Positions 19,498 through 33,563 of a stretch of 35,115 nt of DNA are shown here, piece by piece. Position 1 is the stretch's first letter, and each line of letters begins with the position of its first letter. The notes under the pieces were generated by a model that saw only the letters and a list, made by a program, of their open reading frames with translations, was not told where the DNA came from and ran no database searches. Made by a program: the position numbers and the translations under genes. Source of the DNA: Lujinxingiaceae bacterium (GTDB lineage Bacteria > Myxococcota_A > Bradymonadia > Bradymonadales > Bradymonadaceae); the NCBI GenBank assembly GCA_013697635.1, contig JACCWM010000054.1, positions 1 through 35,115 on the forward strand, in the 5' to 3' direction.

Positions 19498-19814
19498 GTG
19501 CTTCCTCTTCGAGAATGGGCGCCTTGGAGAGCACCGTGGTTGATCATCTACACCCTGTAACGGTGGTGCGCTCAAATGGATCTCAAAACGTGTTCATTGG
19601 TAATCCTCGGCGGGTTTTGGGTGCAAAATGCCCGCGCCACTGAGTGTCTCGATTTCGCAATTTGTCGGCAGATGTGGTACATCTCGGACAAGTTCGTTTT
19701 TTGATGTGCACTTAGTTTTTGGTGAGCCCACCAAAGTGATTCGCGCATTGCTGTTTGCCTATTGAATTGTCATTGATTGCTCAACGCTGACTGAAGTTGC
19801 TTACTGGAGGTGTG
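19498..19814. promoter_or_regulatory. Divergent promoter region with two inverted repeats
   Basis: A 317-base, relatively AT-rich gap between divergent starts. It contains AGATGT (19670-19675) with ACATCT (19679-19684) around GGT, and TTTGGTG (19718-19724) with CACCAAA (19729-19735) around a 4-base loop. Both are short palindromes of a size suited to a dimeric repressor or activator. No consensus promoter pair is clear and no gene is seen. Confidence 0.45.
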
Positions 19815-21542
19815 ATGCGACACCTGCTTGTGATCCTCATAGCCTCATCGCTAATTTTCTCGGTGGGCTGTGAGGGAGAGATGTATCTCTCCGATGGGAC
19901 GACACCGCTCGATGGCTCGCCATTCCCGTCGCAAAAGCCCACAAAACCTGGCGAAGATCCGGACCCAACAGACCCGCTTGATCCCGAAGTGCCTGTGGTC
20001 GAGGTCTTCGTGCCAGGCAATCCCGTGATGCGCCGGCTCACCTCGATCGAGTACGTCAACACCGTCGAAGACGCCTTTGGCATCGGTTTTGTCGATCTGG
20101 TGCTTCCCCATGATCCGACGACGCACGGTGTTACCTCGATCGCGATGGCGTCCGTGACCGTCAGCAACCTGGGTGTCGAGCAGTACGAGACGGCCGGCTT
20201 TGAGATCGCGCGCGTGATCAGCGCCATGCCCTCCGTGCGCGAACGTCTCGTCCCATGTGAGAGCAGCAAGGTCGATGACTACCCCGCCTGCTTTGAGCAG
20301 TTCATCCGCAACTACGGCCGTCGTCTATGGCGTCGTGATTTGAGCGACGTTGAAGTCAAGGGATACCGCGACGTTGCCGTCGAGGCGGCGAAGACTCTGG
20401 GCGACTTTTCGGGCGGCTTCGAGTTTGCATTGGCCGGCCTGCTCCAGTCGCCAAACTTGATTTATCGCACCGAGTACGGCGAGCCCGATGACGAGCGTCC
20501 TGGTCTTCGAAAGCTCACCGGGTTGGAGCTCGCCACCAAACTTTCGTATTTGATCTGGGGCTCGTCGCCCAGCGATGCCATGATCACGATGGCAAGCCAG
20601 GGTGAGTTGGCGACGTCGCATCAACTTCGCGCCGAGGGCAAGGCGATGCTCGAAGCACCGCGAGCGCGCCAGACCTTCGACAATTTTTGGAACGAGTACT
20701 TCGAGCTGCAAGGGCTGGACGGCCTGATCAAGGACCAGGCCACCTATCCTGAGTTCAGCGCGGCTGCGACGCGCAGCATGCGCGAGGAGACCTTGCGATT
20801 GATGGAGCACCTGGTTTTTGAAATCGGTGCCGATATGCGCGAGATGTTCACCACACGCACCACCTTCGTCGACGGCCGTCTCAGCGCGATCTACGGTCTC
20901 GACGCTGAGGGTGAGACGCGCCAGCGTAGCTTTGAGAAAATCGAGTTGCCCGTCGACGCAAGGCGCGCCGGTGTTCTCGGCCACGCGAGCTTTCTCAGCG
21001 TGCAGAGCCATATCGTGACCAATTCGCCCACCCATCGTGGCAAATTCATCCTCGAGGCGCTGATGTGCCAGGGCGTCGAGCCGGCGCCACCCAATGTGCC
21101 AACGCTGATTCCCGAGGCCAATCCTGAGCTCGACCCGCAGACCTTGCGCGAGCGCCTGGAGAATTACTTCGATCAACCCGGCTGTGGCCACTGCCATGCG
21201 CAGATCGATTATCTGGGCTTTGGTCTGGAGAATTACGACGCGATCGGGCGCTGGCGCGAGCTCGACAATGGGCTTGCGATCAACGCGCGTGGAACGCTCA
21301 ACGGCATGGAGTTCGAGGACAGTGCCACGCTGGGAGCGGCGATCGCCGCTGACCCAAAATCGATGAATTGCATGGTTCGAAAGACTTATCGCCATGTGGT
21401 CGGGCGCATTGAGCAGGCCGGTGATGAGCCGCTGATCGCCGAGCTGACCACCAAGTTTGTCGCATCCAACTATCGATTCGAAGAGATGCTGCTCGATATC
21501 ATCTCCAGCGAAGCGTTCCTTTACGTGCAGGAGGCGCAATGA
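19815..21542 (+). CDS. DUF1592/DUF1588/DUF1585-family lipoprotein
   Basis: 575 residues from ATG 19815, with GGAGG 5 bases upstream. The N-terminus RHLLVILIASSLIFSVGC is a lipoprotein signal with Cys at about 20, followed by a Pro/Asp linker. Domains then follow in the known order: MRRLTSIEYVNTVEDAFGI (DUF1587), NYGRRLWRRDLSDVEVKGY (DUF1595), LTGLELATKLSYLIWGS with DNFWNEYFELQGLD (DUF1592), FVDGRLSAIYGLD and LSVQSHIVTNSPTHRGKFI (DUF1588), and CGHCHAQIDYLGFGLENYD (DUF1585). The CGHCH (C457, C460, H461) is a CxxCH motif that could bind haem c. Stop and start overlap (ATGA) with the DUF1552 gene. This pairing recurs in Planctomycetes, Verrucomicrobia and Myxococcota; the role is unknown, possibly exported oxidation or polymer breakdown. 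Confidence 0.92.
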   Translation: MRHLLVILIASSLIFSVGCEGEMYLSDGTTPLDGSPFPSQKPTKPGEDPDPTDPLDPEVPVVEVFVPGNPVMRRLTSIEYVNTVEDAFGIGFVDLVLPHDPTTHGVTSIAMASVTVSNLGVEQYETAGFEIARVISAMPSVRERLVPCESSKVDDYPACFEQFIRNYGRRLWRRDLSDVEVKGYRDVAVEAAKTLGDFSGGFEFALAGLLQSPNLIYRTEYGEPDDERPGLRKLTGLELATKLSYLIWGSSPSDAMITMASQGELATSHQLRAEGKAMLEAPRARQTFDNFWNEYFELQGLDGLIKDQATYPEFSAAATRSMREETLRLMEHLVFEIGADMREMFTTRTTFVDGRLSAIYGLDAEGETRQRSFEKIELPVDARRAGVLGHASFLSVQSHIVTNSPTHRGKFILEALMCQGVEPAPPNVPTLIPEANPELDPQTLRERLENYFDQPGCGHCHAQIDYLGFGLENYDAIGRWRELDNGLAINARGTLNGMEFEDSATLGAAIAADPKSMNCMVRKTYRHVVGRIEQAGDEPLIAELTTKFVASNYRFEEMLLDIISSEAFLYVQEAQ

Positions 21543-22900
21543 ACCGCACCCTCGATCGAAGAACTTTTTTGCGGGGCGCCGTCATGGGTGCCGTGGCGAC
21601 GCTGGCCTTGCCGCCGCTCGAAATCATGATGAACTCGAGCGGAACGGCCTTTGCTAACGGGACGCCGATTCCCAAGCGTTTCGGCGTGTTTTTCTGGGGC
21701 AATGGCGTTGTCGTGCCGCGCTGGGTGCCTCAGCAAACCGGTCGCGATTGGACCAGCGATGAGCTTCGACCGCTGATCGATGCCGGGCTCAAGGACTATG
21801 TCTCGGTGGCTTCCGGCTACGACATCAAGACGGGCAATCCGCGCGGCCATCATGCCGGTGCCGTTGGCATTCTCTCGGGCGCACCGCTCATTCCCCAAGA
21901 CCCAGGAAACGCAGGCTACGCCTCGACCTTTAGCGCGCCATCGATCGACCAGGTGGTCGCCAGCCACATCGGCATGGGCACGCGCTTCAAGTCGATCGAA
22001 TTCGGCGTCGACCCGCGCGTCAGCCGCAGCGAAGGTACGACTCTTGCGCACCTCTCGCACAATGGTCCGGACAACGTCAACCAGGCCGAATACAGCCCGC
22101 ATCGCTTGTTTTCGCGCATCTTTGGTGATGGCTTCGTCGATCCGCTCGACGTTCAGATCGATCCCAAGCTTGCGCTTCGCCGCAACATCCTCGATGCCGT
22201 GCGCGAGGACGTACACCGGCTCAACGCAAAGCTTGGCGCCTCGGACAAGATTCGCCTCGACCAACATCTCGAGGGCGTGGTCTCGTTGCAAAACCGCCTG
22301 TACTCAATTGAGAATGCTCCGCCACCGCCAACGGCTTGCATCGTCGGCGACAGCCCCGGTGAGATTGGACACGACACGGCCCAAAAACAGCGTGATCGCT
22401 CGCGCGCGCTGTCGGATTTGCTCGCGCTCTCGCTGGCCTGTGACGCAACGCGGGTCTGGTCCAATCTCTTCAATGGTTCGGTTTCGGGAACCGTCTTTTG
22501 GGGGATCGATCCCAACGTCGACTTTCACCAATTGACCCACGATGAGCCCGGTGAGCAACCCAAAGTGCACCAGATCGTGACCTTCATCATGGAGGAGTTC
22601 GCCTACCTGCTCAACGCGCTCAAGAGTACGCCCGAAGGCGACGGCAATCTTCTCGATCACTCGGTGATCCTGGCTTCCTCCGATCTCGCGTCGGGCTATC
22701 TGCACAACCTCGTCGACTATCCAATCCTGCTTGCAGGCAAGGGTGGCGGCGCCCTGCGAGGGGGCGTCCACCATCGCGCCAATCGTGGAAACGCCTCGGA
22801 GGTATTGCTGACCTGCCTTCGCGCCATGGACTGCCCTGGCACTTCGTTTGGTGTGGCCGGCGGCCAGGTTCAGGAGAGCGTCTCGGCCTTCGAGAGCTGA
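21539..22900 (+). CDS. DUF1552 protein with Tat-type signal
   Basis: 453 residues. The N-terminus has DRRTFLRGAVMGAVATLALPP, a twin-arginine (RRTFLRG) export signal with a hydrophobic stretch and cut near AFANG, so it is exported folded to the periplasm. The rest matches DUF1552: FGVFFWGNGVVVPRWVPQ, HHAGAVGILSGAPL, SIDQVVASHIG, DRSRALSDLLALSLACDATRVWS and SVILASSDLASGYLHN. The family resembles DUF1501 proteins, which are related to the alkaline-phosphatase/sulfatase superfamily. It is translationally coupled to the DUF1592 lipoprotein, so the two probably act together. Use of Tat suggests a cofactor or metal. Confidence 0.92.
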   Translation: MNRTLDRRTFLRGAVMGAVATLALPPLEIMMNSSGTAFANGTPIPKRFGVFFWGNGVVVPRWVPQQTGRDWTSDELRPLIDAGLKDYVSVASGYDIKTGNPRGHHAGAVGILSGAPLIPQDPGNAGYASTFSAPSIDQVVASHIGMGTRFKSIEFGVDPRVSRSEGTTLAHLSHNGPDNVNQAEYSPHRLFSRIFGDGFVDPLDVQIDPKLALRRNILDAVREDVHRLNAKLGASDKIRLDQHLEGVVSLQNRLYSIENAPPPPTACIVGDSPGEIGHDTAQKQRDRSRALSDLLALSLACDATRVWSNLFNGSVSGTVFWGIDPNVDFHQLTHDEPGEQPKVHQIVTFIMEEFAYLLNALKSTPEGDGNLLDHSVILASSDLASGYLHNLVDYPILLAGKGGGALRGGVHHRANRGNASEVLLTCLRAMDCPGTSFGVAGGQVQESVSAFES

Positions 22901-22919
22901 GCGTCGGCCAACCGCTCAG
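22897..22919. terminator. Shared hairpin covering both stop codons of convergent genes
   Basis: CTGAGCG (22897-22903) and CGCTCAG (22913-22919) form a 7-bp stem with a 9-base loop. The plus-strand TGA (22898-22900) lies in one arm and the minus-strand stop (22916-22918) in the other. There is no T-run on either side, so it may be a weak bidirectional terminator. Confidence 0.5.
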
Positions 22920-25078
22920 TCGATCCAATCCGGCAGGGCGGACAGCGCGCGACCATAGATCGGCAAGGATTCTTTGACGCGCTCGGTCGTCGGTGGTCCT
23001 TGCTCCCACTTCTGCCAGGTAAAGCGCGGGGTTTCGGTGATCAACTTGCCGTTTAAGACGATGCTCAAAGCGACGCCGTCGCTCTCCTGGAGTTGGCGGC
23101 CCGGACGATCCCTGTAGTCGTGCATGACCGTTCGCCGGCTGGGATCGACAAAGTTCAACAATGACCAGGGGATACGGATGTCGACGTGGGTGTCGCTGAC
23201 GACCACGGCATCGTGGCTGCTGGGGCTTTGGCGATGGCCTCGAATTCGCAGCCGGCCGATGTCATGGAAGGTGGGCTCAAACCAGTGCGTGCCGTCATTG
23301 CTGCCGCGCTCCTGGCCGTTTTGCCAACGCACGAGCTTCCAGGGACCGCCGTCGCTTGGCACCGAGCGAAAGAGCTGAACCGGATCGACGTCGCGCCTCC
23401 AGATCGCAAAGAGGTCATAGGCCTGGGTGACGTAGAGTTCGGCCGAGTCTGTCGCCTCGATCACGAGCGCAAATTCACTTCGATTGGCCGTGCGCACGCC
23501 TCCGGGCAGGATCGACTCGCCCAGGTCCGCGCGGTAGGTGTCGTAGCCGATGACGAGGCGATCGCCCTCGCCAAGGGGTGTGGCCAGCTCAACGCGGGCG
23601 TGGAAGAAGGCCGGGTCGGTGTCAATGCGTACGCGGCTGAGCGCAGGGTCTCCGGTGATGTGAACACGGCGCGCGAAGTCAGGCGCGCCGGCGTCGAAGG
23701 CGATCAGCCCGAAGTTTTGCTCGGCTGCGGTGACGTTATGCCACAGGGCGCGCCGCTCGACGGGGAAGTCGAACTGGTCGGTGATCCAGGTCGGCTTCCA
23801 CCACTCGTCGATCCAGGAGAAGAAGGCGCCGCCGGCGCAGTTCGCGTCGTAGATCGTGCGCATCATCCGTGCGCCAACCTCTCCCTGCTCGCGCTCGTCG
23901 TGTCCGCCGTGATCCATGCCGAGATGGCCATAGTGGGCGCTTCCCCAGCTCGAAGGCACGCCAAACTCAGCGATCAGCAGCGGGATGTTGCGGTAGTGGC
24001 TTCGCAGATCGATCAGATAGCCCAGATAGCTATTGGGACCCTCGGCGTCCTCGAAACGTCGGTAGTCGGGATCATCGGGGATGAAGTCCGGATAATAGGG
24101 ATAGGCATGGTAGCTCGCGAAGATGCCACCGGGCGCGTCGACCGGCTCGATGCGTGAGATGTCAAAGACGGCGATGTCCTCGTCGCTGTAGTGGTCGCCC
24201 TCGGTGGGATGGCTCAGCGGGTCGAGCGTGGGCCAACTCGAGACGCTGACCGGGCGCTGCACGCCGTAGTTGTCCCGCTCGTACTTGATCAGGCTGTCGA
24301 GGTGGCGCGCCCACCAGACCTCGGTGGCCTCGGAGGCGCGCACCTGAAAGACCTCGCCGGTGAAGCTGCGCACGTTCATGTGCGCGTCGTTCGTGATCAG
24401 CACCTCCTCGGGGTGCACCTCGCGACCGATGATCCAACCCAAGATCCAGGGTGAGACGTTGGCCCGGTACTCGCCATAGGCGCGGCCGTAGCGGTGGCCA
24501 ATCGTGCAATTTCCGTGGGAGCAGTCGAGCACCTCGAGGATGCCCTCCTCGAAGTGCGCCGTCATCTCGAAGAGGTCACCCGAGATGCTTTGCTCATCGA
24601 GCCAGATGCCGTGCAGCAGATAGAGCGGGTTGTCCGGATTGCGGTGATTGTGGATCGCCAACGCCTCATAGAAGCGCGGATAGTGCAGCGTGTAGATGCG
24701 CAAGGTGTTGATCCCCGCATCGCGCATCTGTTCGAACCAGCGCGCGTACTGCTCGCGGGTGGCGGCCAGCTCGCCGGCGCGCGTGCCGGGCACGGCCACG
24801 CCCAGGTTGATCCCTTTGACGAAGAGCTCGCGGTACTGGCCATCGATGTGCACGGTCAGATAGTCGCTCGTCGTCGCAAACGGCAGCGGATCGAGCTCAC
24901 CGAGTGGGGGCAGCTCGACGTGGGGCACTTGGGTGTCGTCTTCGAGATCCTCGGGAGCGTGAGGCACGTCGTCACAACCCCAGAGCGTTGTAGCCAACAA
25001 GCAGAGGATCACGAGACCAATTGTGCGCCGCAAAGCTGCGTCGCTCGCGATAAAGAGGTCGCCGAGCAAAGAATTCAA
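22916..25078 (-). CDS. Glycoside-hydrolase-like (clan A TIM-barrel) lipoprotein
   Basis: About 720 residues from a TTG start at 25078, chosen because AGGAGG (25083-25088) lies 4 bases upstream; a farther in-frame ATG at 25150 has no such site. A lipoprotein signal (GLVILCLLATTLWGC) follows 20 residues in. The body looks like a clan GH-A (beta/alpha)8 enzyme: LFVKGINLGVAVPGT, AGINTLRIYTLHYPRFYEAL, SPWILGWIIGREVHPEE (Glu in the acid/base position), FASYHAYPYYPDF, and IPLLIAEFGVPSSWG (Glu in the nucleophile position). A beta-rich C-terminal region follows. Next to a divergent exopolysaccharide synthase operon it probably trims or modifies that polymer in the periplasm or at the surface (inference). 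GH family not assigned. Confidence 0.82.
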   Translation of the reverse strand: MNSLLGDLFIASDAALRRTIGLVILCLLATTLWGCDDVPHAPEDLEDDTQVPHVELPPLGELDPLPFATTSDYLTVHIDGQYRELFVKGINLGVAVPGTRAGELAATREQYARWFEQMRDAGINTLRIYTLHYPRFYEALAIHNHRNPDNPLYLLHGIWLDEQSISGDLFEMTAHFEEGILEVLDCSHGNCTIGHRYGRAYGEYRANVSPWILGWIIGREVHPEEVLITNDAHMNVRSFTGEVFQVRASEATEVWWARHLDSLIKYERDNYGVQRPVSVSSWPTLDPLSHPTEGDHYSDEDIAVFDISRIEPVDAPGGIFASYHAYPYYPDFIPDDPDYRRFEDAEGPNSYLGYLIDLRSHYRNIPLLIAEFGVPSSWGSAHYGHLGMDHGGHDEREQGEVGARMMRTIYDANCAGGAFFSWIDEWWKPTWITDQFDFPVERRALWHNVTAAEQNFGLIAFDAGAPDFARRVHITGDPALSRVRIDTDPAFFHARVELATPLGEGDRLVIGYDTYRADLGESILPGGVRTANRSEFALVIEATDSAELYVTQAYDLFAIWRRDVDPVQLFRSVPSDGGPWKLVRWQNGQERGSNDGTHWFEPTFHDIGRLRIRGHRQSPSSHDAVVVSDTHVDIRIPWSLLNFVDPSRRTVMHDYRDRPGRQLQESDGVALSIVLNGKLITETPRFTWQKWEQGPPTTERVKESLPIYGRALSALPDWID

Positions 25079-25370
25079 GTTGCCTCCTGAGGCATGGGTT
25101 AAGTCTTTGGACCAAAATAGAAAAAGGGCTTGCGAGTTGATGTGATGCAACCAAGTTTAAGCATGAACCAGCCACAAACGAGTCGATAGTCGACCTATGT
25201 GCTCACCCCAACGAAAGCAGCGGGTGAGCGTATCTGTACCGGTGACGCGCGCATCCTTTGAGGCCTTGCCGGTGGCGCAGGGGAGCGAGCTTTTTCTAAA
25301 TTTGGCCGATGGCCCCTGGACGCCAATGGTCTCTGGGCCGTGTGGTCGTGCCCATGCACGTGGGGATAAA

Positions 25371-26537
25371 ATGTTGATGGAATGGATGGCATCTTGGGAG
25401 TTGGAAACGGCTCGATTCGTGGCCGTCGTTGTGCTGCTTGCGGCCGCGAGCAGTCTCGCTCTCTTGTTTGCGGGCTTATTTGTTCAGGGTTGGTGGCAGG
25501 CCCACCGCGAGCGGCTCAAGAACCGCTTGTCTTTGCAGCTAAGTGATCTGGTGGCCTGCAGCGATGCGGCGGCGATACCGCCCTGGGTCGAGCAGTGCGG
25601 CCCGCTGGCGCGCACGTGCCTCTCGGAGTTGGTCTTGGAGAGGCTCGCGGCAAGCCAGGGCAACACGCGAAAGCAAATGGCCGAGCTGTATGTGACTCTG
25701 GGCTTTGCCGGCGACGATCGCCGCCGGCTTCGGTCGATGAATTGGAAGACTCGGCTGCGCGCGATGCGCCGGCTCTTTATCGTGGCCGGCTTCGAGGAGC
25801 GTGAGGAGCTGCTCGGTGCGCTCGACGACCACTATTTGATGCGCGTGCTGGCCGCACATGCCCTGGCGCGCAGCGGCGAGGTCAACGACGTGCTGCGTGC
25901 GCTCAACGCGCTCGATCTGCACTCCAATTTGATGGAAGCGCCGGTCTACGCCTTGCTCAAGTACTTGCCCCGCGATCGTTTCAGCGAACTGTTCGCCAAC
26001 TGGGAAAACATCACATCCGCTCGCGTGCGCCGCGTCGTGTTGGTCACAGCAGCAAGCCAGGGGCTCCCGAGGGCGGCGACCATGATCGAGCGACTCGCCA
26101 AAGACCCCGACGTCGAGGTGCGGATCGGGGTTTGCATCGCGGCCAGCCGACTGAAAACGCGCTGCACGCTGGATTTCTTGTTCGTCCTGCTCAAGGACGA
26201 AGCCTGGGAGGTGCGCGCCAAAGCGGCGCGAGCGCTGGCCAGCCATCCCAGCCTGCGTGCTCTCGAGCCCTTGAGTGAAGCGATGAACGATCCGGCCTTC
26301 TGGGTGCGCCAAAACGCGGCACTGGCCATGCAGGCCGTCGGCCTGATGGGCCAGCATCGCCTCGACAAAATCACGGCCGGCTCAGACGCCCATAAGGTGC
26401 AAGTCTGGGGCAGCGAGCAGGAGATCACGCGCTTTCGCGCCTACCTCGAGTTGAACATGGTCTGGGTTGCCGACGCCGCCGGTGAGGATGTCTCACTCCC
26501 ACAATTCAAAGCCGATCTAGCCAGGACGAGTCAGTGA
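25371..26537 (+). CDS. Membrane-anchored HEAT-repeat protein
   Basis: 388 residues from ATG 25371, with GGGGA 5 bases upstream. An in-frame ATG at 25197 would add 58 residues of unrecognised sequence without a good ribosome site. One membrane helix near the N-terminus (VAVVVLLAAASSLALLFAGLFV) leaves the rest in the cytoplasm. That part is made of helical HEAT-type repeats, for example DDHYLMRVLAAHALARSGEVNDVLRAL, PDVEVRIGVCIAASRL and EAWEVRAKAARALASHPSL. Its stop overlaps the GTG of the glycosyltransferase (GTGA). HEAT proteins are scaffolds; here it probably docks onto or regulates the synthase, in the role PilZ or GGDEF partners play elsewhere (inference). Confidence 0.85.
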   Translation: MLMEWMASWELETARFVAVVVLLAAASSLALLFAGLFVQGWWQAHRERLKNRLSLQLSDLVACSDAAAIPPWVEQCGPLARTCLSELVLERLAASQGNTRKQMAELYVTLGFAGDDRRRLRSMNWKTRLRAMRRLFIVAGFEEREELLGALDDHYLMRVLAAHALARSGEVNDVLRALNALDLHSNLMEAPVYALLKYLPRDRFSELFANWENITSARVRRVVLVTAASQGLPRAATMIERLAKDPDVEVRIGVCIAASRLKTRCTLDFLFVLLKDEAWEVRAKAARALASHPSLRALEPLSEAMNDPAFWVRQNAALAMQAVGLMGQHRLDKITAGSDAHKVQVWGSEQEITRFRAYLELNMVWVADAAGEDVSLPQFKADLARTSQ

Positions 26538-27934
26538 CCACATATATCGATCTCTTCATCTTCGCCTATTGTCTCATGCTTGCGTTGTCCTCGATGTTTC
26601 TGATCGTCTTTGCCGTCGTCGAGATTACGCGGCGAAAGGCCACACGAATGCCCGAGCTCGACGAGGAGGTGCTCTCGGAGGTGAGCACGCCGCCGATCGC
26701 GGTGATTGCGCCGTCCTACAACGAGCAGGTTCATATCGTTGAGTGCGTGCGCGGCTTCTTGGGGCTCGATTACCCTCAGCACGAGGTGATCGTGGTCAAC
26801 GACGGCAGCACCGACGCGACGCTCGAGCGGTTGATCGCGGACTTTGAACTCGAGGAATGCGACCGCTTCGTGCAGCGCCAGATCCCCACCTCGGAGGTGC
26901 GCGCGATCTACCGCTCACGCCAGGATGCGCGGCTATGGGTGGTCGACAAGGTCAACGGCGGCAAAGCCGACGCGCTCAACGTGGGCATTAACCTTGCGCG
27001 CTGCCCGCTGGTTTGCTGCGTCGATGCCGATACGATTCTTGCCAAGGATGCGCTGCTGCGCCTGGTCGAGCCCTACCTCTACGATCCCCAGGGCGTGGTC
27101 GCAGTCGGCGGCACGGTGCGCATCATCAACGGCTGCAAGGTCGAGGACAGCGCGATCAAAGAGATCGCGCTGCCCTCGTCGTGGCTTGCGCGCTTTCAAA
27201 TCGTCGAGTACCTGGGCGCATTTCTCTTTGGGCGTATGGGCTTTAACCGTCTCGGTGGCAACGTGATCATCTCGGGAGCGGTCGGGCTGTTTTTGCGAAC
27301 GGCGCTGGTCGAGGCCGGCGGCTATGCGCGCGACACGATCGGGGAGGACGCCGAGTTGGTGATCCGCTTGCATCGTCGCGAGTGCCACCGCGCCGTGAGG
27401 CGAAAGGTCGTGCAGATCCCCGAGCCGATCTGTTTTACCGAGGCGCCCGAGGATCTGGCGACCTTTGCCCGTCAACGCGACCGTTGGCACCGCGGGCTGG
27501 CTGACGCGCTCTGGAAGCATCGCGCCATGTTCTTCAGCCCGCGCTATGGACGAACGGGCATGCTTGTTTTGCCCTGGTTTCTGGTCTTCGAGTTGCTCGC
27601 GCCGCTGGTCGAGTTGCTTGGCTATCTGTGGCTGTGCTCGGCGGTGGCCTTTGGCTTTATTTCTTGGCCGATGGCCGGTGTATTCTTGCTCATTGCGCTG
27701 GCCTGGGGGCTGATCCTGTCCTTGCAGAGCATCCTGATCGACAACTGGAGCTTCAACGTCTTTCGCTCCTCGCGCTCGCGGATCGGTCTGGTCCTGACGG
27801 CCATCTTGTTCAACGTCGGCTACCGGCATCTGACGCTGGTCTGTCGGCTCAGCGGGCTGGCGCGCTACATGATCGGCTCGAAGACCTGGGGCGTGATGAA
27901 GCGCAAGGGCTTTCGTCGCTTGGGGGCGGCATGA
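26534..27934 (+). CDS. Processive family-2 glycosyltransferase, inner membrane
   Basis: 466 residues, starting at a GTG that overlaps the HEAT gene stop. One N-terminal membrane helix (LFIFAYCLMLALSSMFLIVFAVV) precedes a GT-A catalytic domain with all landmarks of the cellulose/PNAG/hyaluronan synthase type: VIAPSYNE, VVNDGSTD, VDADT, GEDAEL and the processivity motif RQRDRWHRG (Q-x-x-R-W type). At least four C-terminal helices follow (FLVFELLAPLVELLGYLW, MAGVFLLIALAWGLILSLQSI, IGLVLTAILFNVGY). It resembles PgaC or YaiP and should polymerise a sugar from a UDP-sugar while moving the chain through the membrane. The polymer cannot be told from the sequence. Confidence 0.92.
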   Translation: MTTYIDLFIFAYCLMLALSSMFLIVFAVVEITRRKATRMPELDEEVLSEVSTPPIAVIAPSYNEQVHIVECVRGFLGLDYPQHEVIVVNDGSTDATLERLIADFELEECDRFVQRQIPTSEVRAIYRSRQDARLWVVDKVNGGKADALNVGINLARCPLVCCVDADTILAKDALLRLVEPYLYDPQGVVAVGGTVRIINGCKVEDSAIKEIALPSSWLARFQIVEYLGAFLFGRMGFNRLGGNVIISGAVGLFLRTALVEAGGYARDTIGEDAELVIRLHRRECHRAVRRKVVQIPEPICFTEAPEDLATFARQRDRWHRGLADALWKHRAMFFSPRYGRTGMLVLPWFLVFELLAPLVELLGYLWLCSAVAFGFISWPMAGVFLLIALAWGLILSLQSILIDNWSFNVFRSSRSRIGLVLTAILFNVGYRHLTLVCRLSGLARYMIGSKTWGVMKRKGFRRLGAA

Positions 27935-29205
27935 AGCCGACGATCTGGCGTGAATTCGGCCTTTGTATGACCACGGTGGGCCTCGTGCTGAGCTGCGGGT
28001 GTGCCTCGGCGCCAAAGAGTGAGGGCACGCAGCGCGCTGCCATGCTGTGCGAGCCCGCGCCGGCCAATTGGGAGGCCAATCTCGAGCTGGTTCGCCACAG
28101 GGCAGCGGCATGGCTTCAAATCGTCGAGATGGGCCAGAGCTCGTCGAGCGCGCCCCGGCTGGCCATATTGTCCTATCCCGAGGGCGCACCAGAGCTCGCC
28201 AGGCGCAGCTTCATCTACGACGCTGCGCTGGCCGTGCTGTACTTTAGCTGGATCGACGAGGTCGAGCGCGCCGAGGGCCTGGTCAACACGCTCATCGCCT
28301 TACAGGGCCGCGACGGGGCCTGGGGTTTTAGCTTCGATGTTGATCGTGATGGCTTCTATGATGTCGGCTACACCCGCGCCGGCAGTATCGCCTGGGTCGC
28401 TCATGCGCTGGCCTATTTCGGGCAGCGCTTCGAGCACAAGGAGGCGGTGTTTGCCGCCAGAAAGGCCGCACGCCATCTGGTGCGCCAGCGTGTGAACGAC
28501 GCGAATGCCGCCCACCATGGGCTGGTGCGCGCCGGGCGCGGCTCCCACGACCCCTCCAGCGGGCGGCGCAAGCTCGTGGTGCCGGTGGACTTTGCCGTAA
28601 CCGAGCATCAATTCGATGTCCACATGGCCTTGGCCAACGCCTATCCGCGCGCAGCCGAGTTGCTCGCTGCCTCGGTGATCGAGCGCCTGTGGCTCGATGG
28701 TGCCGGACGCTTCGCCGTCGGCGCAGGGCCGCAGGGCCTCGATGAGCAGCGTGCGCTCGATGCGTCGGGCGGATGGGGGGCGCTATGGCTGTGGTCGATC
28801 GGCGAACGTGAGCGTGCGCGACGCAGCCTGGCCTATACCTTGGAGCACTTCACAGCGCAGACCGAGAGGATCGGGGGCTATGTGCCCTACCTCGATCCGA
28901 TCGACGGTCACTCGCCGCAGAGCGCGCGCGATTTGATCTTTGTTGAAGGAAGCCTCGGCGTGGGTCTTGCGGCGCTGCGTCTGGGTGAGCGCGCTGTGGC
29001 CCGAGGCGCGCTCGAGATGGCCGTGCATCTCTCGTGCGCGAGTGGACCGGGTATTCCCTATGCCAACCGCGACGTCGCGATGTTTCCAGCCATACCGGCT
29101 GGCGCGTCGACGCTGTGGTTTCTATTTCTGGAACGCGAGTACTCGACGGGCAAGCGTGCCCCGCTGTTCGAGTCACTGTGGGTCGAGCCAATCGAGGAAT
29201 CATGA
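27931..29205 (+). CDS. Alpha/alpha-barrel (six-hairpin-like) lipoprotein
   Basis: 424 residues from ATG 27931, which overlaps the glycosyltransferase stop (ATGA). A lipoprotein signal is present: GLCMTTVGLVLSCGC with the lipobox Cys near 22-24. The remainder is helical with repeats of the toroid type seen in six-hairpin glycosidases, polysaccharide lyases and terpene-cyclase-like folds: SFIYDAALAVLYFSWI, LVNTLIALQGRDGAWGFSFD, RAGSIAWVAHALAYF, ASGGWGALWLWSIG and RDLIFVEGSLGVGLAALRLG. Asp and Glu in these blocks could be catalytic. Its position between synthase and outer-membrane genes suggests a periplasmic polymer hydrolase, lyase or epimerase (inference). I do not assign a family. Confidence 0.78.
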   Translation: MKPTIWREFGLCMTTVGLVLSCGCASAPKSEGTQRAAMLCEPAPANWEANLELVRHRAAAWLQIVEMGQSSSSAPRLAILSYPEGAPELARRSFIYDAALAVLYFSWIDEVERAEGLVNTLIALQGRDGAWGFSFDVDRDGFYDVGYTRAGSIAWVAHALAYFGQRFEHKEAVFAARKAARHLVRQRVNDANAAHHGLVRAGRGSHDPSSGRRKLVVPVDFAVTEHQFDVHMALANAYPRAAELLAASVIERLWLDGAGRFAVGAGPQGLDEQRALDASGGWGALWLWSIGERERARRSLAYTLEHFTAQTERIGGYVPYLDPIDGHSPQSARDLIFVEGSLGVGLAALRLGERAVARGALEMAVHLSCASGPGIPYANRDVAMFPAIPAGASTLWFLFLEREYSTGKRAPLFESLWVEPIEES

Positions 29206-30347
29206 CCAGACAATTGAGCACCATCTTCATCGTCAATGTCGTATTTGCCCTGGCCTTGAGCGGTCCGGCTTTGGCGGAGTGCACCGAGGCCATGGAACTT
29301 CGCCTGGGCGAGTGGTTTGTCGAAGCCGAGCAGGCCGCTCGCGATTGTCTGGAGCGCCGCCCGGAGAATGCCGAGGCCTGGGCCGAGCTCGCGCGCTCGT
29401 TGGCTGTGCAAGGGCGACTTGCTGAGGCCGTCGAGGCGGTCGACCAAGCGCTCGTCGAGCATCCCCACTCCGGCGACTACACGCTCTTGCTCGCTCGCTT
29501 GTGGTACTGGCAGGGCGAGCATGAGCGGGCAATTCAGACATTGTCGAGCTTGCCCGTGGGCTGGAGTGATACCCACGACGTGGTCGTCTTGCGCCGTGAG
29601 ATCGACCTGGCCCTGGCTGCGCCGCCCGATCTGCTCGCTTCAAAGTCCTATTTTCTGGTTCAGGTCGGCTATCTGGCGGCCTCCGAGCGGCCCGAAGGCT
29701 GGCATTTTCGCCACGCCCTGGGCCTGGGAGTGACGCAGCGCCTGCTCGCTGAGGTCAATTTTGAGGGCATCCGTCGAGGCTTTGGTCAGGCCCGCTTTAC
29801 CGATTTCATGGTCGGTGGCGCCAGCGAATATCGCTTCGACGCGGGATACAGGATGCGCGCCGGTGGAGCCTACACACTCAATCCGCGCTTCTCACCTCTT
29901 TGGAACGCGTATGTCGAGCCTGGATTCGTCTTTGAGGGCGGCCTCGAGTTGGGCCTGCGCTTTTGGCGCATCGAATTTGAACAGGCCGGCATCAACGTGC
30001 TCAACCCCGGCGTGGTCAAGTATCTCGGTCCTTGGCTCTTCGACGCGCGATACTATCTGGGAATCGAGAGTGGCCAGAGCCTTCGCCACTCCGTGCTCGG
30101 GCGCACCGGCTACTTTTTCCACGACGACCTCCATGTCTATCTGGGCGCCGGCTTGGCCAACCACGCCGACTACCTCGAAGGCCGTCAGATCAGCCACGAA
30201 TACGGCCTGATCGGCCTGAGCGGCATTGAGTTCGGCTTCAGCCAGCGCCTTCATATGCTCGTCGACTACCAGTACCGCCACGAGGCGGCCAGCGAGCGCG
30301 TCCTTGGCCAACACCGCATCACGGCCGGCCTGCGCACGCGCTTTTGA
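29202..30347 (+). CDS. TPR plus YaiO-like outer-membrane beta-barrel protein
   Basis: 381 residues from ATG 29202, overlapping the previous stop (ATGA). It has a Sec signal (STIFIVNVVFALALSGPALAE). Residues about 30-130 are TPR-like repeats (GEWFVEAEQAARDCLERRPENAEAWAELARSL, GRLAEAVEAVDQALVEHP). The C-terminal about 230 residues alternate in the manner of an outer-membrane barrel and end in a terminal aromatic (GLRTRF), resembling E. coli YaiO. TPR plus barrel is the layout of PgaA/BcsC-type exporters, so this is the likely outer-membrane exit for the polymer made by the GT2 enzyme. The barrel is smaller than PgaA's and may be a partial or simplified pore. Confidence 0.85.
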   Translation: MTRQLSTIFIVNVVFALALSGPALAECTEAMELRLGEWFVEAEQAARDCLERRPENAEAWAELARSLAVQGRLAEAVEAVDQALVEHPHSGDYTLLLARLWYWQGEHERAIQTLSSLPVGWSDTHDVVVLRREIDLALAAPPDLLASKSYFLVQVGYLAASERPEGWHFRHALGLGVTQRLLAEVNFEGIRRGFGQARFTDFMVGGASEYRFDAGYRMRAGGAYTLNPRFSPLWNAYVEPGFVFEGGLELGLRFWRIEFEQAGINVLNPGVVKYLGPWLFDARYYLGIESGQSLRHSVLGRTGYFFHDDLHVYLGAGLANHADYLEGRQISHEYGLIGLSGIEFGFSQRLHMLVDYQYRHEAASERVLGQHRITAGLRTRF

Positions 30348-31260: not shown

Positions 31261-31971
31261 ATGAACCATGATGGATGCGCTTTGCGGAGAACACTCTCTC
31301 GCCTTGCGGCCCTCTCACTGGGCTTTGCGCTTGTGGGATCGGCAGGATGCATGGAGCAGAAGAGCCCAGACAATGCCAATGCGCTTCACGCCGTTCAAGC
31401 CGAACTTGTGAGTGCCGAGAGCTGCGCGGACGATGTGCGCGCGACCGCGAAGCTCGGGCCGATTCTGACGATTGACGAGCCGGTCGAGATCGAGGCTGAC
31501 GTTGCGCCCACGACCTTCATCATCGACGTCGACTGGGACGAGGCACGCGGCTATGGCCGCGTCGATGCCCGCCTGCTTCCCGAGGAAGTCGCCTCCAAAG
31601 TTGAGCATCTGCCACTTCCCGTGTTGCTTCCAGCGCTTGGCGACATCTTGGAGCGCATGGTGGTCGTGACCGACGAGTACTGGTACGCCGCCTCCGTAGC
31701 CTTTGAAGATCACACGGTGCTGGTGCAGGCATCGCGCATCGGTTTTGAGCGCGAAGGCGACGAGGGCCGCGAGATCGAGGAGCGCATCGTCGAGAACGAC
31801 TTTCTGGTCTCGCGCAACTCGCTGATCGCAACCTTGAGCTTTCCGGCCTTCGGCCTGGTCTACACGATTGACGTCGAGTGCGAGAATCCTGACACCAATG
31901 TGCTTTGCACCGAGGACGACTACATCCTCTCGCTGGCCAACGCCATGAGCATCGCTGGAGGTACGCTATGA
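31261..31971 (+). CDS. Lipoprotein of unknown function
   Basis: 236 residues, with AAGGA 6 bases before the ATG. The N-terminus has an arginine-containing n-region, then LAALSLGFALVGSAGC, a lipoprotein signal with Cys about 30. The mature protein is acidic and beta-rich (TTFIIDVDWDEARGYGRVDARLLPEEV, YWYAASVAFEDHTVLVQASRIGFE), with a late Cys pair (VECENPDTNVLCTEDD). I do not recognise a family. It is the first gene after a sigma-54 promoter, and its TGA overlaps the ATG of the M23 peptidase gene, so the two proteins are probably made together and may work together at the cell surface. Confidence 0.8.
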   Translation: MNHDGCALRRTLSRLAALSLGFALVGSAGCMEQKSPDNANALHAVQAELVSAESCADDVRATAKLGPILTIDEPVEIEADVAPTTFIIDVDWDEARGYGRVDARLLPEEVASKVEHLPLPVLLPALGDILERMVVVTDEYWYAASVAFEDHTVLVQASRIGFEREGDEGREIEERIVENDFLVSRNSLIATLSFPAFGLVYTIDVECENPDTNVLCTEDDYILSLANAMSIAGGTL

Positions 31972-33563
31972 AGCGCTTTCTCATCCTTGCTACGCTCGCT
32001 GCGGCCTCCATCGGCCTGGTCGTCTTGGACAGCGCTCCGGTTGCTGCGCAATCCTTTACCTACAAGCCGGCCGGCGAGCTCGTCGCCGGCAGCGGTCGCG
32101 GTCGCGCAGACAGCACGACCTATGTCTCGAACATGCGCTTTCCGATCGAGCGTGGACCGGCCTTTGCCAACTCCCAGGTCTGGGGTCACGGTGGTTATTC
32201 GGGCCCGGCTGGCGGACAGTGCCACTCGAACAACTACTCCTATCCATGGCGCGACAACTACTGTGAGACGCGCAGCTGGTCGGTGCCGATGTGTCCAGGC
32301 GGCAAGGGTCATCAGGGCCAGGACATTCGCCCCTCGACCTGCGAGAACTCCAAGCATAACGCCGTTGCCGCCGTCGATGGCAAGATCACCAACATCGGCA
32401 GCTACTCGGTCTCTTTGCAGGCATCTGACGGCACGCGCCACCGCTACTTGCACATGTCTCATGTGGCCGTCTCGGTCGGCCAGAACGTGAAAAAGGGCCA
32501 GGTGCTTGGCCGCGTCTCCAACAAGATGGGCGGCACGCCGACCACGATCCATCTTCACTACGATCTGTACCGAAACGGTCAATTCATCCCGACCTACATG
32601 TCACTGGTCAACTCCTACAAGAGCTTGATGGGGGTGAACACGCCGGTGCCTCCTCCGCCCGCTCCAAAGCCTGCTGCGGGTGGCTGCGAGGGTACGGCCG
32701 CCTCGGGCGCCTCGAGCGCGCTGTTCAAGGACTTCGTTCCGACGCAAACGGGCTACCGCGAGTCGGAGTTGCTCTACCGCGCCGGCATCACCAGCGGCTG
32801 CAAGCAGTCGCCCTTGATGTTCTGCCCGAATTGCCCGGCAACGCGCCGGCATATGGTCATGTTTTTGGTGCGCGCGGCCAAGCTCGATGTCTCCAAGCCG
32901 CCAACGCGGGCAACCTTCTCCGATGTTCCGGTGGGCTCTATGGGCTTTGCCCATGTCGAGGCTGCGGCCAAGGCCGGCATCACGACCGGCTGCGGAAATG
33001 GCAAGTTCTGCCCGGACAACACCGTCACGCGGGCGCAGGCTGCCTCACTGGTGCGGCGCACGATGAAGTGGCCACTGGTTCGCCCGGCGAAGTCGAACTT
33101 CAAAGATGTCGCCACGAGCTCGACGCACTACGCAGACATCGAGACCTTGCGCAGCCGCTGCGTCACCCGCGGCTGCACTTCGGACACCTTTTGTCCCAAC
33201 GCCGAGCTGACCCGCGCACACGCCGCAGTCTTCATCGCTCGCGCCTTCAATCTCAGCAACATCAACTCCTGCGCCGTCAATCCGGCCGCTCAGACGGCAA
33301 GCTCCTCGCCGGTGATGGCAGCTGAGGCCACCAACGGGGGCATGGGACCGGCCGCCGGCGCCGAAGCTGAAGCTCCGCCAGGATCAAACACCTCGAATAC
33401 CTCGAACACCTCGAACACCAGCAACAACAATCACCAGTCCAGCGCCGGCCCGTCGGGCTGCAGCGCAGCGCAGGCACCGCTCGGCCAGGGCGGCCCCGCG
33501 CAACTCATCGCGCTGCTCGTTGTCGGCATGCTCGGCCTTCGACGGGCAAGGGCCAAGCGCTGA
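31968..33563 (+). CDS. M23 peptidase with SLH repeats and MYXO-CTERM-like tail
   Basis: 531 residues from ATG 31968 (4-base overlap with the lipoprotein stop; GGAGG 6 bases upstream). A Sec signal precedes AQSFTYKP. The LytM/M23 domain has GHQGQDI (His115-x3-Asp119) and HLHYDL (HxH, about 195-197), so all zinc and catalytic positions are present and it is probably an active peptidoglycan or protein endopeptidase. A Pro-rich linker precedes three Cys-rich SLH-like repeats (about 250-430; FKDFVPTQTGYRESELLYRAGITSGC, FSDVPVGSMGFAHVEAAAKAGITTGC, FKDVATSSTHYADIETL), then an Asn/Thr/Ser repeat. The C-terminus GPSGCSAA...LIALLVVGMLGLRRARAKR has the Gly-Cys, helix and Arg cluster of MYXO-CTERM sorting tails, suggesting anchoring at the cell surface. 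Confidence 0.9.
   Translation: MKRFLILATLAAASIGLVVLDSAPVAAQSFTYKPAGELVAGSGRGRADSTTYVSNMRFPIERGPAFANSQVWGHGGYSGPAGGQCHSNNYSYPWRDNYCETRSWSVPMCPGGKGHQGQDIRPSTCENSKHNAVAAVDGKITNIGSYSVSLQASDGTRHRYLHMSHVAVSVGQNVKKGQVLGRVSNKMGGTPTTIHLHYDLYRNGQFIPTYMSLVNSYKSLMGVNTPVPPPPAPKPAAGGCEGTAASGASSALFKDFVPTQTGYRESELLYRAGITSGCKQSPLMFCPNCPATRRHMVMFLVRAAKLDVSKPPTRATFSDVPVGSMGFAHVEAAAKAGITTGCGNGKFCPDNTVTRAQAASLVRRTMKWPLVRPAKSNFKDVATSSTHYADIETLRSRCVTRGCTSDTFCPNAELTRAHAAVFIARAFNLSNINSCAVNPAAQTASSSPVMAAEATNGGMGPAAGAEAEAPPGSNTSNTSNTSNTSNNNHQSSAGPSGCSAAQAPLGQGGPAQLIALLVVGMLGLRRARAKR

Follow-up and report, generated by a model that had tools for sequence, protein, structure and literature searches.

Does the gene cluster at positions 22916-30347 of the window, the 35,115-nucleotide stretch of Lujinxingiaceae bacterium DNA analysed here (contig JACCWM010000054.1, assembly GCA_013697635.1), belong to a described synthase-dependent exopolysaccharide system, or is it a system of its own? 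The source organism is a member of the predatory-lineage family Bradymonadaceae. The cluster combines a family 2 glycosyltransferase (GT2) with a membrane HEAT-repeat protein, a lipoprotein resembling a glycoside hydrolase (GH), a second lipoprotein and a putative outer-membrane export protein. We consider it likely that the locus is the diderm form of a distinct synthase-dependent exopolysaccharide system, built on a GH-HEAT-GT2 module in which the HEAT protein serves the synthase as a dedicated subunit.

Four genes on the plus strand were chained by three 4-base overlaps in the order HEAT, GT2, (alpha/alpha)6 lipoprotein and TPR/YaiO-like barrel. The membrane HEAT-repeat protein was encoded at 25371-26537, with ATG 25371 or 25377 as the most likely start rather than 25197, and its stop codon (26535-26537) overlapped the GTG start at 26534 of the processive GT2, the synthase (26534-27934). 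The GT2 stop at 27934 overlapped the ATG at 27931 of the (alpha/alpha)6-barrel lipoprotein (27931-29205), a probable glycan hydrolase/epimerase-type enzyme, and the stop of the latter at 29205 overlapped the ATG at 29202 of the putative export protein, which carries TPRs and a YaiO-like outer-membrane beta-barrel (29202-30347). On the minus strand, divergent from this operon, lay the gene of a clan GH-A glycosidase-like lipoprotein of about 720 residues (22916-25078) with the lipobox ...TLWGC. TTG 25078 was its most likely start, rather than 25150, with AGGAGG at 25083-25088, 4 nt upstream of the TTG. The original prediction had described a four-gene set with 4-base overlaps and a divergent clan-A lipoprotein, and the gene coordinates, domains and folds bore this out. 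In the intergenic interval 25079-25370, which separates the GH gene from the operon, no sigma-70-like promoter was found, the scan being uninformative there, and an Rfam scan of the window gave no matches.

The GT2, of 466 residues, matched PF00535 and PF13641 and contained the motifs DGS, DAD, GED and QRDRW, the last being of the QxxRW type. Across about 57 GT2 sequences, the motifs D, DxD, ED and QxxRW of processive GT2s were near-invariant. The window genome encoded a single copy of the module GT2; the separate PilZ-regulated copy that would have spoken against the original prediction was not seen. In the GT2 tree, the module sequences formed a group apart from four E. coli references, the branches of the references being very long and the root unsure.

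Four relatives, namely putative Bradymonas sediminis (G007), putative Persicimonas caeni (G010) and two uncultured bacteria, had this operon and its divergent GH gene, at 32-60% identity and, for most of the proteins, 37-60% (the contig of G014 stops before the barrel gene). Because it is conserved in these four relatives, the arrangement is far beyond chance. The putative B. sediminis and P. caeni loci had an extra response-regulator gene between GH and HEAT. G020 had a three-gene HEAT-GT2-barrel form, which G014 carried too, as a second copy. Among 329 genomes of the phylum, the GH profile found 24 and the GT2 profile 49; GT2 was present in 23 of the 24 GH genomes (hypergeometric P 9e-21, a value that ignores kinship among genomes). 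In Clostridia, GH was found in 18 of 245 genomes, in the gene order GH-HEAT-GT2 and in one direction, and the trio also occurred in named plasmid records of Paenibacillus cellulosilyticus, Deinococcus radiophilus and Planococcus maritimus. In the phylum, in Clostridia and Bacilli and in Deinococcus, every locus with contig room had a HEAT gene on the same strand as GT2, adjoining it or a few genes away. A HEAT profile, derived partly from the same loci, found HEAT in 23/23 module loci, in each within 1.5-kb flanks of GT2, and in 0/15 control loci, which held other GT2s, among them E. coli PgaC, BcsA, NfrB and YaiP. The co-occurrence of HEAT and GT2 across genomes, proposed earlier as a check, was essentially complete.

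The HEAT protein matched PF13646 (E 1e-24, 87 bits). Like most of the family members examined, it had one N-terminal transmembrane helix, followed by net positive charge, and because of this charge the HEAT solenoid is predicted from sequence to be probably cytoplasmic. We define the HEAT-GT2 module by a HEAT protein with one transmembrane helix adjoining a GT2 of the module clade, and the window locus has this pair. In loci L134, L135, L137 and L138, the HEAT partner was enlarged, with open frames of 1237-1354 residues, and had as neighbours a response regulator and a GT2 that belongs to the same clade but is more distant; the enlarged partner of L134 had 17 HEAT_2 stretches.

The GH protein had no matches in Pfam, NCBIfam or the PDB sequences in profile searches. 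Its predicted structure was a clan GH-A (beta/alpha)8 barrel with a C-terminal beta-rich region (predicted local distance difference test score, pLDDT, 87). The closest fold was that of the GH157 endo-beta-1,3-glucanase LaGH157 (Z 32.3, root-mean-square deviation 2.5 over 315 residues), but the GH protein differs from it in being a lipoprotein, in its extra C-terminal beta region and in having only 18% identity, and while the folds matched this well, the GH profile retrieved no GH157 sequence from the PDB at E up to 1. The two glutamates expected in clan GH-A were present as E221 after strand 4 and E372 on strand 7 (numbering of the frame at 22919-25081). In the family alignment, Glu was found in 36 of 41 sequences at the acid/base site and in 40 of 43 at the nucleophile site. 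The lipid-anchor Cys was invariant in the first GH alignment (n=23); among clostridial copies added to the alignment afterwards, most had an N-terminal hydrophobic segment without this Cys.

The lipoprotein at 27931-29205 had no Pfam or NCBIfam matches, and none in a PDB profile search with its alignment. It was modelled as an (alpha/alpha)6 barrel (pLDDT 88), with the conserved residues YD, EH..D, LD and E. Dextran dextrinase, MmpH and cellobiose 2-epimerase matched its fold with Z scores of 33.0, 30.7 and 29.9, respectively, and because many (alpha/alpha)6 enzymes match at similar Z, no single activity was assigned. This lipoprotein was common in loci of the phylum Myxococcota_A and was not seen in Bacillota loci. 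The protein at 29202-30347 had strong TPR matches and weak but significant YaiO matches (E 2e-5 for TIGR04390 and 5e-4 for PF19413). The gene of this TPR protein, a barrel by its weak YaiO match, was linked to the module in most diderm relatives, and the unlinked barrel that would have argued against the original prediction was not seen; monoderm relatives had the module without the barrel.

Gene fusions also tie the parts of the module together. A partner of about 370 residues without Pfam matches, here called the DKTVP partner, extended GT2 at its C-terminus in family f11 and a GH copy at its N-terminus in two Bacillota loci (L176 and L209), and in Deinococcus, TPRs were fused to the GH protein. 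The DKTVP partner had no match in the window's own genome. Members of its family (L121:6320-8806 on the minus strand, L022:6887-8035 and L209:8991-12116) shared the motif 'VLDKTVP...EH..LFW' and a conserved GG.I..EFNTF. In L177 and in Planococcus, genes for VTC (polyphosphate polymerase), DUF4956 and CotH preceded the module, and parts of this set were present in L183 and L187.

Judging by its motifs, the GT2 would be an inner-membrane enzyme that polymerises an activated sugar and extrudes the chain. The HEAT protein, anchored by its one transmembrane helix, would dock on the GT2 from the cytoplasm and may relay control from a response regulator or a cyclic di-GMP (c-di-GMP) protein, encoded nearby or in trans. 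The two lipoproteins, the GH-A protein of the core and the (alpha/alpha)6-barrel protein, would trim or remodel the chain in the periplasm, and in diderms the TPR/YaiO-like barrel would guide the polymer across the outer membrane. Tentatively, the product would be a homopolymer, probably of a beta-linked hexose or N-acetylhexosamine. Co-occurrence, linkage and motifs support the predicted envelope-spanning polymer locus with two lipoprotein enzymes, and an obligate HEAT partner.

A divergent poly-N-acetylglucosamine (PNAG) system of the pga/ica type, with its usual subunits too diverged to be recognised, would account for several of these features. The best curated model for the GT2 was PgaC_IcaA (TIGR03937), E. 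coli PgaC was the highest-scoring of four references for the GT2 family profile at 147 bits, the exporter is a TPR-barrel protein as is PgaA, and polysaccharide deacetylase genes lay near two of the relatives' loci (L022 and L176). However, the PgaC_IcaA score was 128.7 bits against a cut-off of 422, and the PgaA exporter model (TIGR03939) reached 15.9 of 366.65 bits on the barrel protein, through the TPR part only. The PgaB deacetylase/GH and PgaD had no Pfam matches in the five genes or the ten scanned neighbours, the HEAT and GH-A proteins are not pga genes, and the module GT2s grouped far from PgaC, albeit on long branches. A hidden PNAG system is therefore, in our opinion, quite improbable. 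The CelA model scored 67.8 bits on the GT2 against a cut-off of 699 and PilZ was absent, which sets the locus apart from cellulose synthase (Bcs), and the GT2 had GT2 domains only, without the MshEN fusion of NfrBA. By these membership tests, the locus is not a member of the PNAG, cellulose or Nfr systems; the likeness to PNAG and cellulose claimed at the outset held for function and not for membership, the PgaC, CelA and PgaA models all scoring far below their cut-offs. It is also improbable that the GT2 product is a glycolipid or a decoration on a protein or the cell wall instead of a long exopolymer, with the lipoproteins and barrel serving surface delivery. Some GT2 families with QxxRW-like motifs are non-polymerising, and the CotH kinase and VTC genes of the Bacillota relatives could point to the modification of surface proteins. 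But a CotH-PPP-DUF4956 cassette also stands beside true Pel polymer operons of Gram-positive bacteria (Whitfield et al., PMC7112168), glycan-cutting enzymes are constant partners of the module, and a TPR-barrel linked in diderms and absent in monoderms fits polymer export.

The original prediction further held that HEAT repeats replace the usual PilZ or GGDEF partner, which would make the synthase independent of c-di-GMP. In agreement with this, no PilZ, GGDEF, MshEN or response-regulator receiver (REC) domain was found by Pfam in the five locus genes or the ten neighbours scanned, and a linked REC gene was absent from L023, L024 and the window. In other relatives, however, a response-regulator gene stood beside HEAT (L021, L022, L025, L026 and L175), a REC-PilZ gene or a GGDEF-like-REC gene accompanied the module (L131 and L142, respectively), or a GGDEF/EAL gene followed GT2 (L177), and the window genome encodes six PilZ proteins elsewhere, in trans. 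Replacement was not supported as stated and is unlikely; an obligate adaptor subunit is a better description of the HEAT protein than a substitute for PilZ or GGDEF.

Several observations weigh against a distinct exopolysaccharide system with HEAT as a synthase subunit. A few GH relatives (L083, L180 and L183) have each lost one catalytic Glu of the pair, and in such copies the GH fold may be structural or binding-only. The YaiO scores of the barrel were below the curated cut-offs (20.6 against 23.9 bits for PF19413 and 24.6 against 32 bits for TIGR04390), and the GH gene of family f11 was unlinked to GT2. The kinship ignored by the hypergeometric test and the partly shared origin of the HEAT profile in the adjacency control count on the same side.

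Upstream of the locus, the neighbours were a DUF1592/1588-type gene with a gene overlapping it and a gene for an LVIVD-repeat protein. The overlapping pair (19797-22900) comprised a DUF1587/1592/1588/1585 protein and, after an overlap of 4 bases, a second gene, which we take to resemble a DUF1552-type protein. Such pairs are frequent in Planctomycetes and Myxococcota. Downstream were a SnoaL-like gene and, at 31905-33563, an M23 peptidase bearing SLH domains, in a Gram-negative lineage.

If the reading of the locus as a distinct system is correct, an exopolysaccharide system common to predatory Bradymonadaceae, clostridia, bacilli and Deinococcus has been missed by current databases. It would escape them because neither Pfam nor NCBIfam has a model for the GH and (alpha/alpha)6 proteins, and the GT2 and HEAT proteins are only generically named. 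The module core of GT2, membrane HEAT protein and new GH-type enzyme is widespread and apparently unrecognised, and no paper describing a GH-HEAT-GT2 module was found in the open-access library searched. Evenly poised is the wider proposal that GH-HEAT-GT2 is a further major exopolysaccharide synthase class that crosses phyla, in monoderms and diderms, with obligate HEAT as a new kind of adaptor through which response-regulator or c-di-GMP signals would regulate a processive glycosyltransferase, and with a new GH family of its own. Bradymonas sediminis, Persicimonas caeni, Deinococcus radiophilus and Planococcus maritimus are cultivable hosts for direct tests of a HEAT-partnered synthase.

The cellulose system Bcs comprises a GT2 synthase, the (alpha/alpha)6 glycanase BcsZ (GH8) and a TPR-barrel exporter. 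The window locus resembles BcsA-B-Z-C in its GT2, (alpha/alpha)6-barrel enzyme and TPR-barrel exporter, but has neither the BcsB subunit nor a PilZ domain like that of BcsA. With PgaABCD/IcaADBC of PNAG, it shares a GT2 synthase, a TPR-barrel exporter and a periplasmic enzyme with GH activity, whereas the HEAT subunit, the different GH and scores far below the family cut-offs separate the two. E. coli NfrB-NfrA-YbcH consists of a GT2 with QxxRW, a TPR-rich outer-membrane pore and a periplasmic accessory protein, encoded by overlapping genes (PMC8669469). The window locus has all of these traits, but the Nfr system is without HEAT, and the GT part of NfrB scored 19 bits with the module GT2 profile. 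The CotH-PPP-DUF4956 cassette is common to Gram-positive Pel operons and to GH-HEAT-GT2 in L177 and Planococcus, but Pel uses PelF and PelD/E/G, none of which was seen in the module loci annotated here. Two other candidates were rejected: the Zetaproteobacteria stalk cluster (PMC8250860), where the GT2 Sfz2 carries an EpsE-like domain and HEAT is absent, and L031 (G038; L031:3082-10607), a HEAT-less cousin with a PgaC-like GT2 and a giant TPR protein with a barrel-like end. In C. perfringens, NELoc-2 is a list of genes associated with disease (necrotic enteritis), in which the GT2 is called 'chitin synthase' and HEAT 'heat repeat' (PMC2879425; PMC5964661). Its order is VTC, 'tubulin/FtsZ', CotH (497 residues), hypothetical (685 residues), HEAT (377 residues) and GT2 (466 residues) (Table 4 of Lepp et al. 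2010, PMC2879425). This layout is like that of the module loci of Clostridia, the hypothetical protein being of GH size and the 'tubulin/FtsZ' of DUF4956 size; unlike the window locus, it is without the barrel and the (alpha/alpha)6 lipoprotein. Gene order, sizes and domains, rather than sequence, suggest that NELoc-2 contains the module, which would explain the roles of its HEAT, 'chitin synthase' and hypothetical genes. By the tests run, the window locus lies outside the PNAG, cellulose and Nfr systems, though it works similarly.

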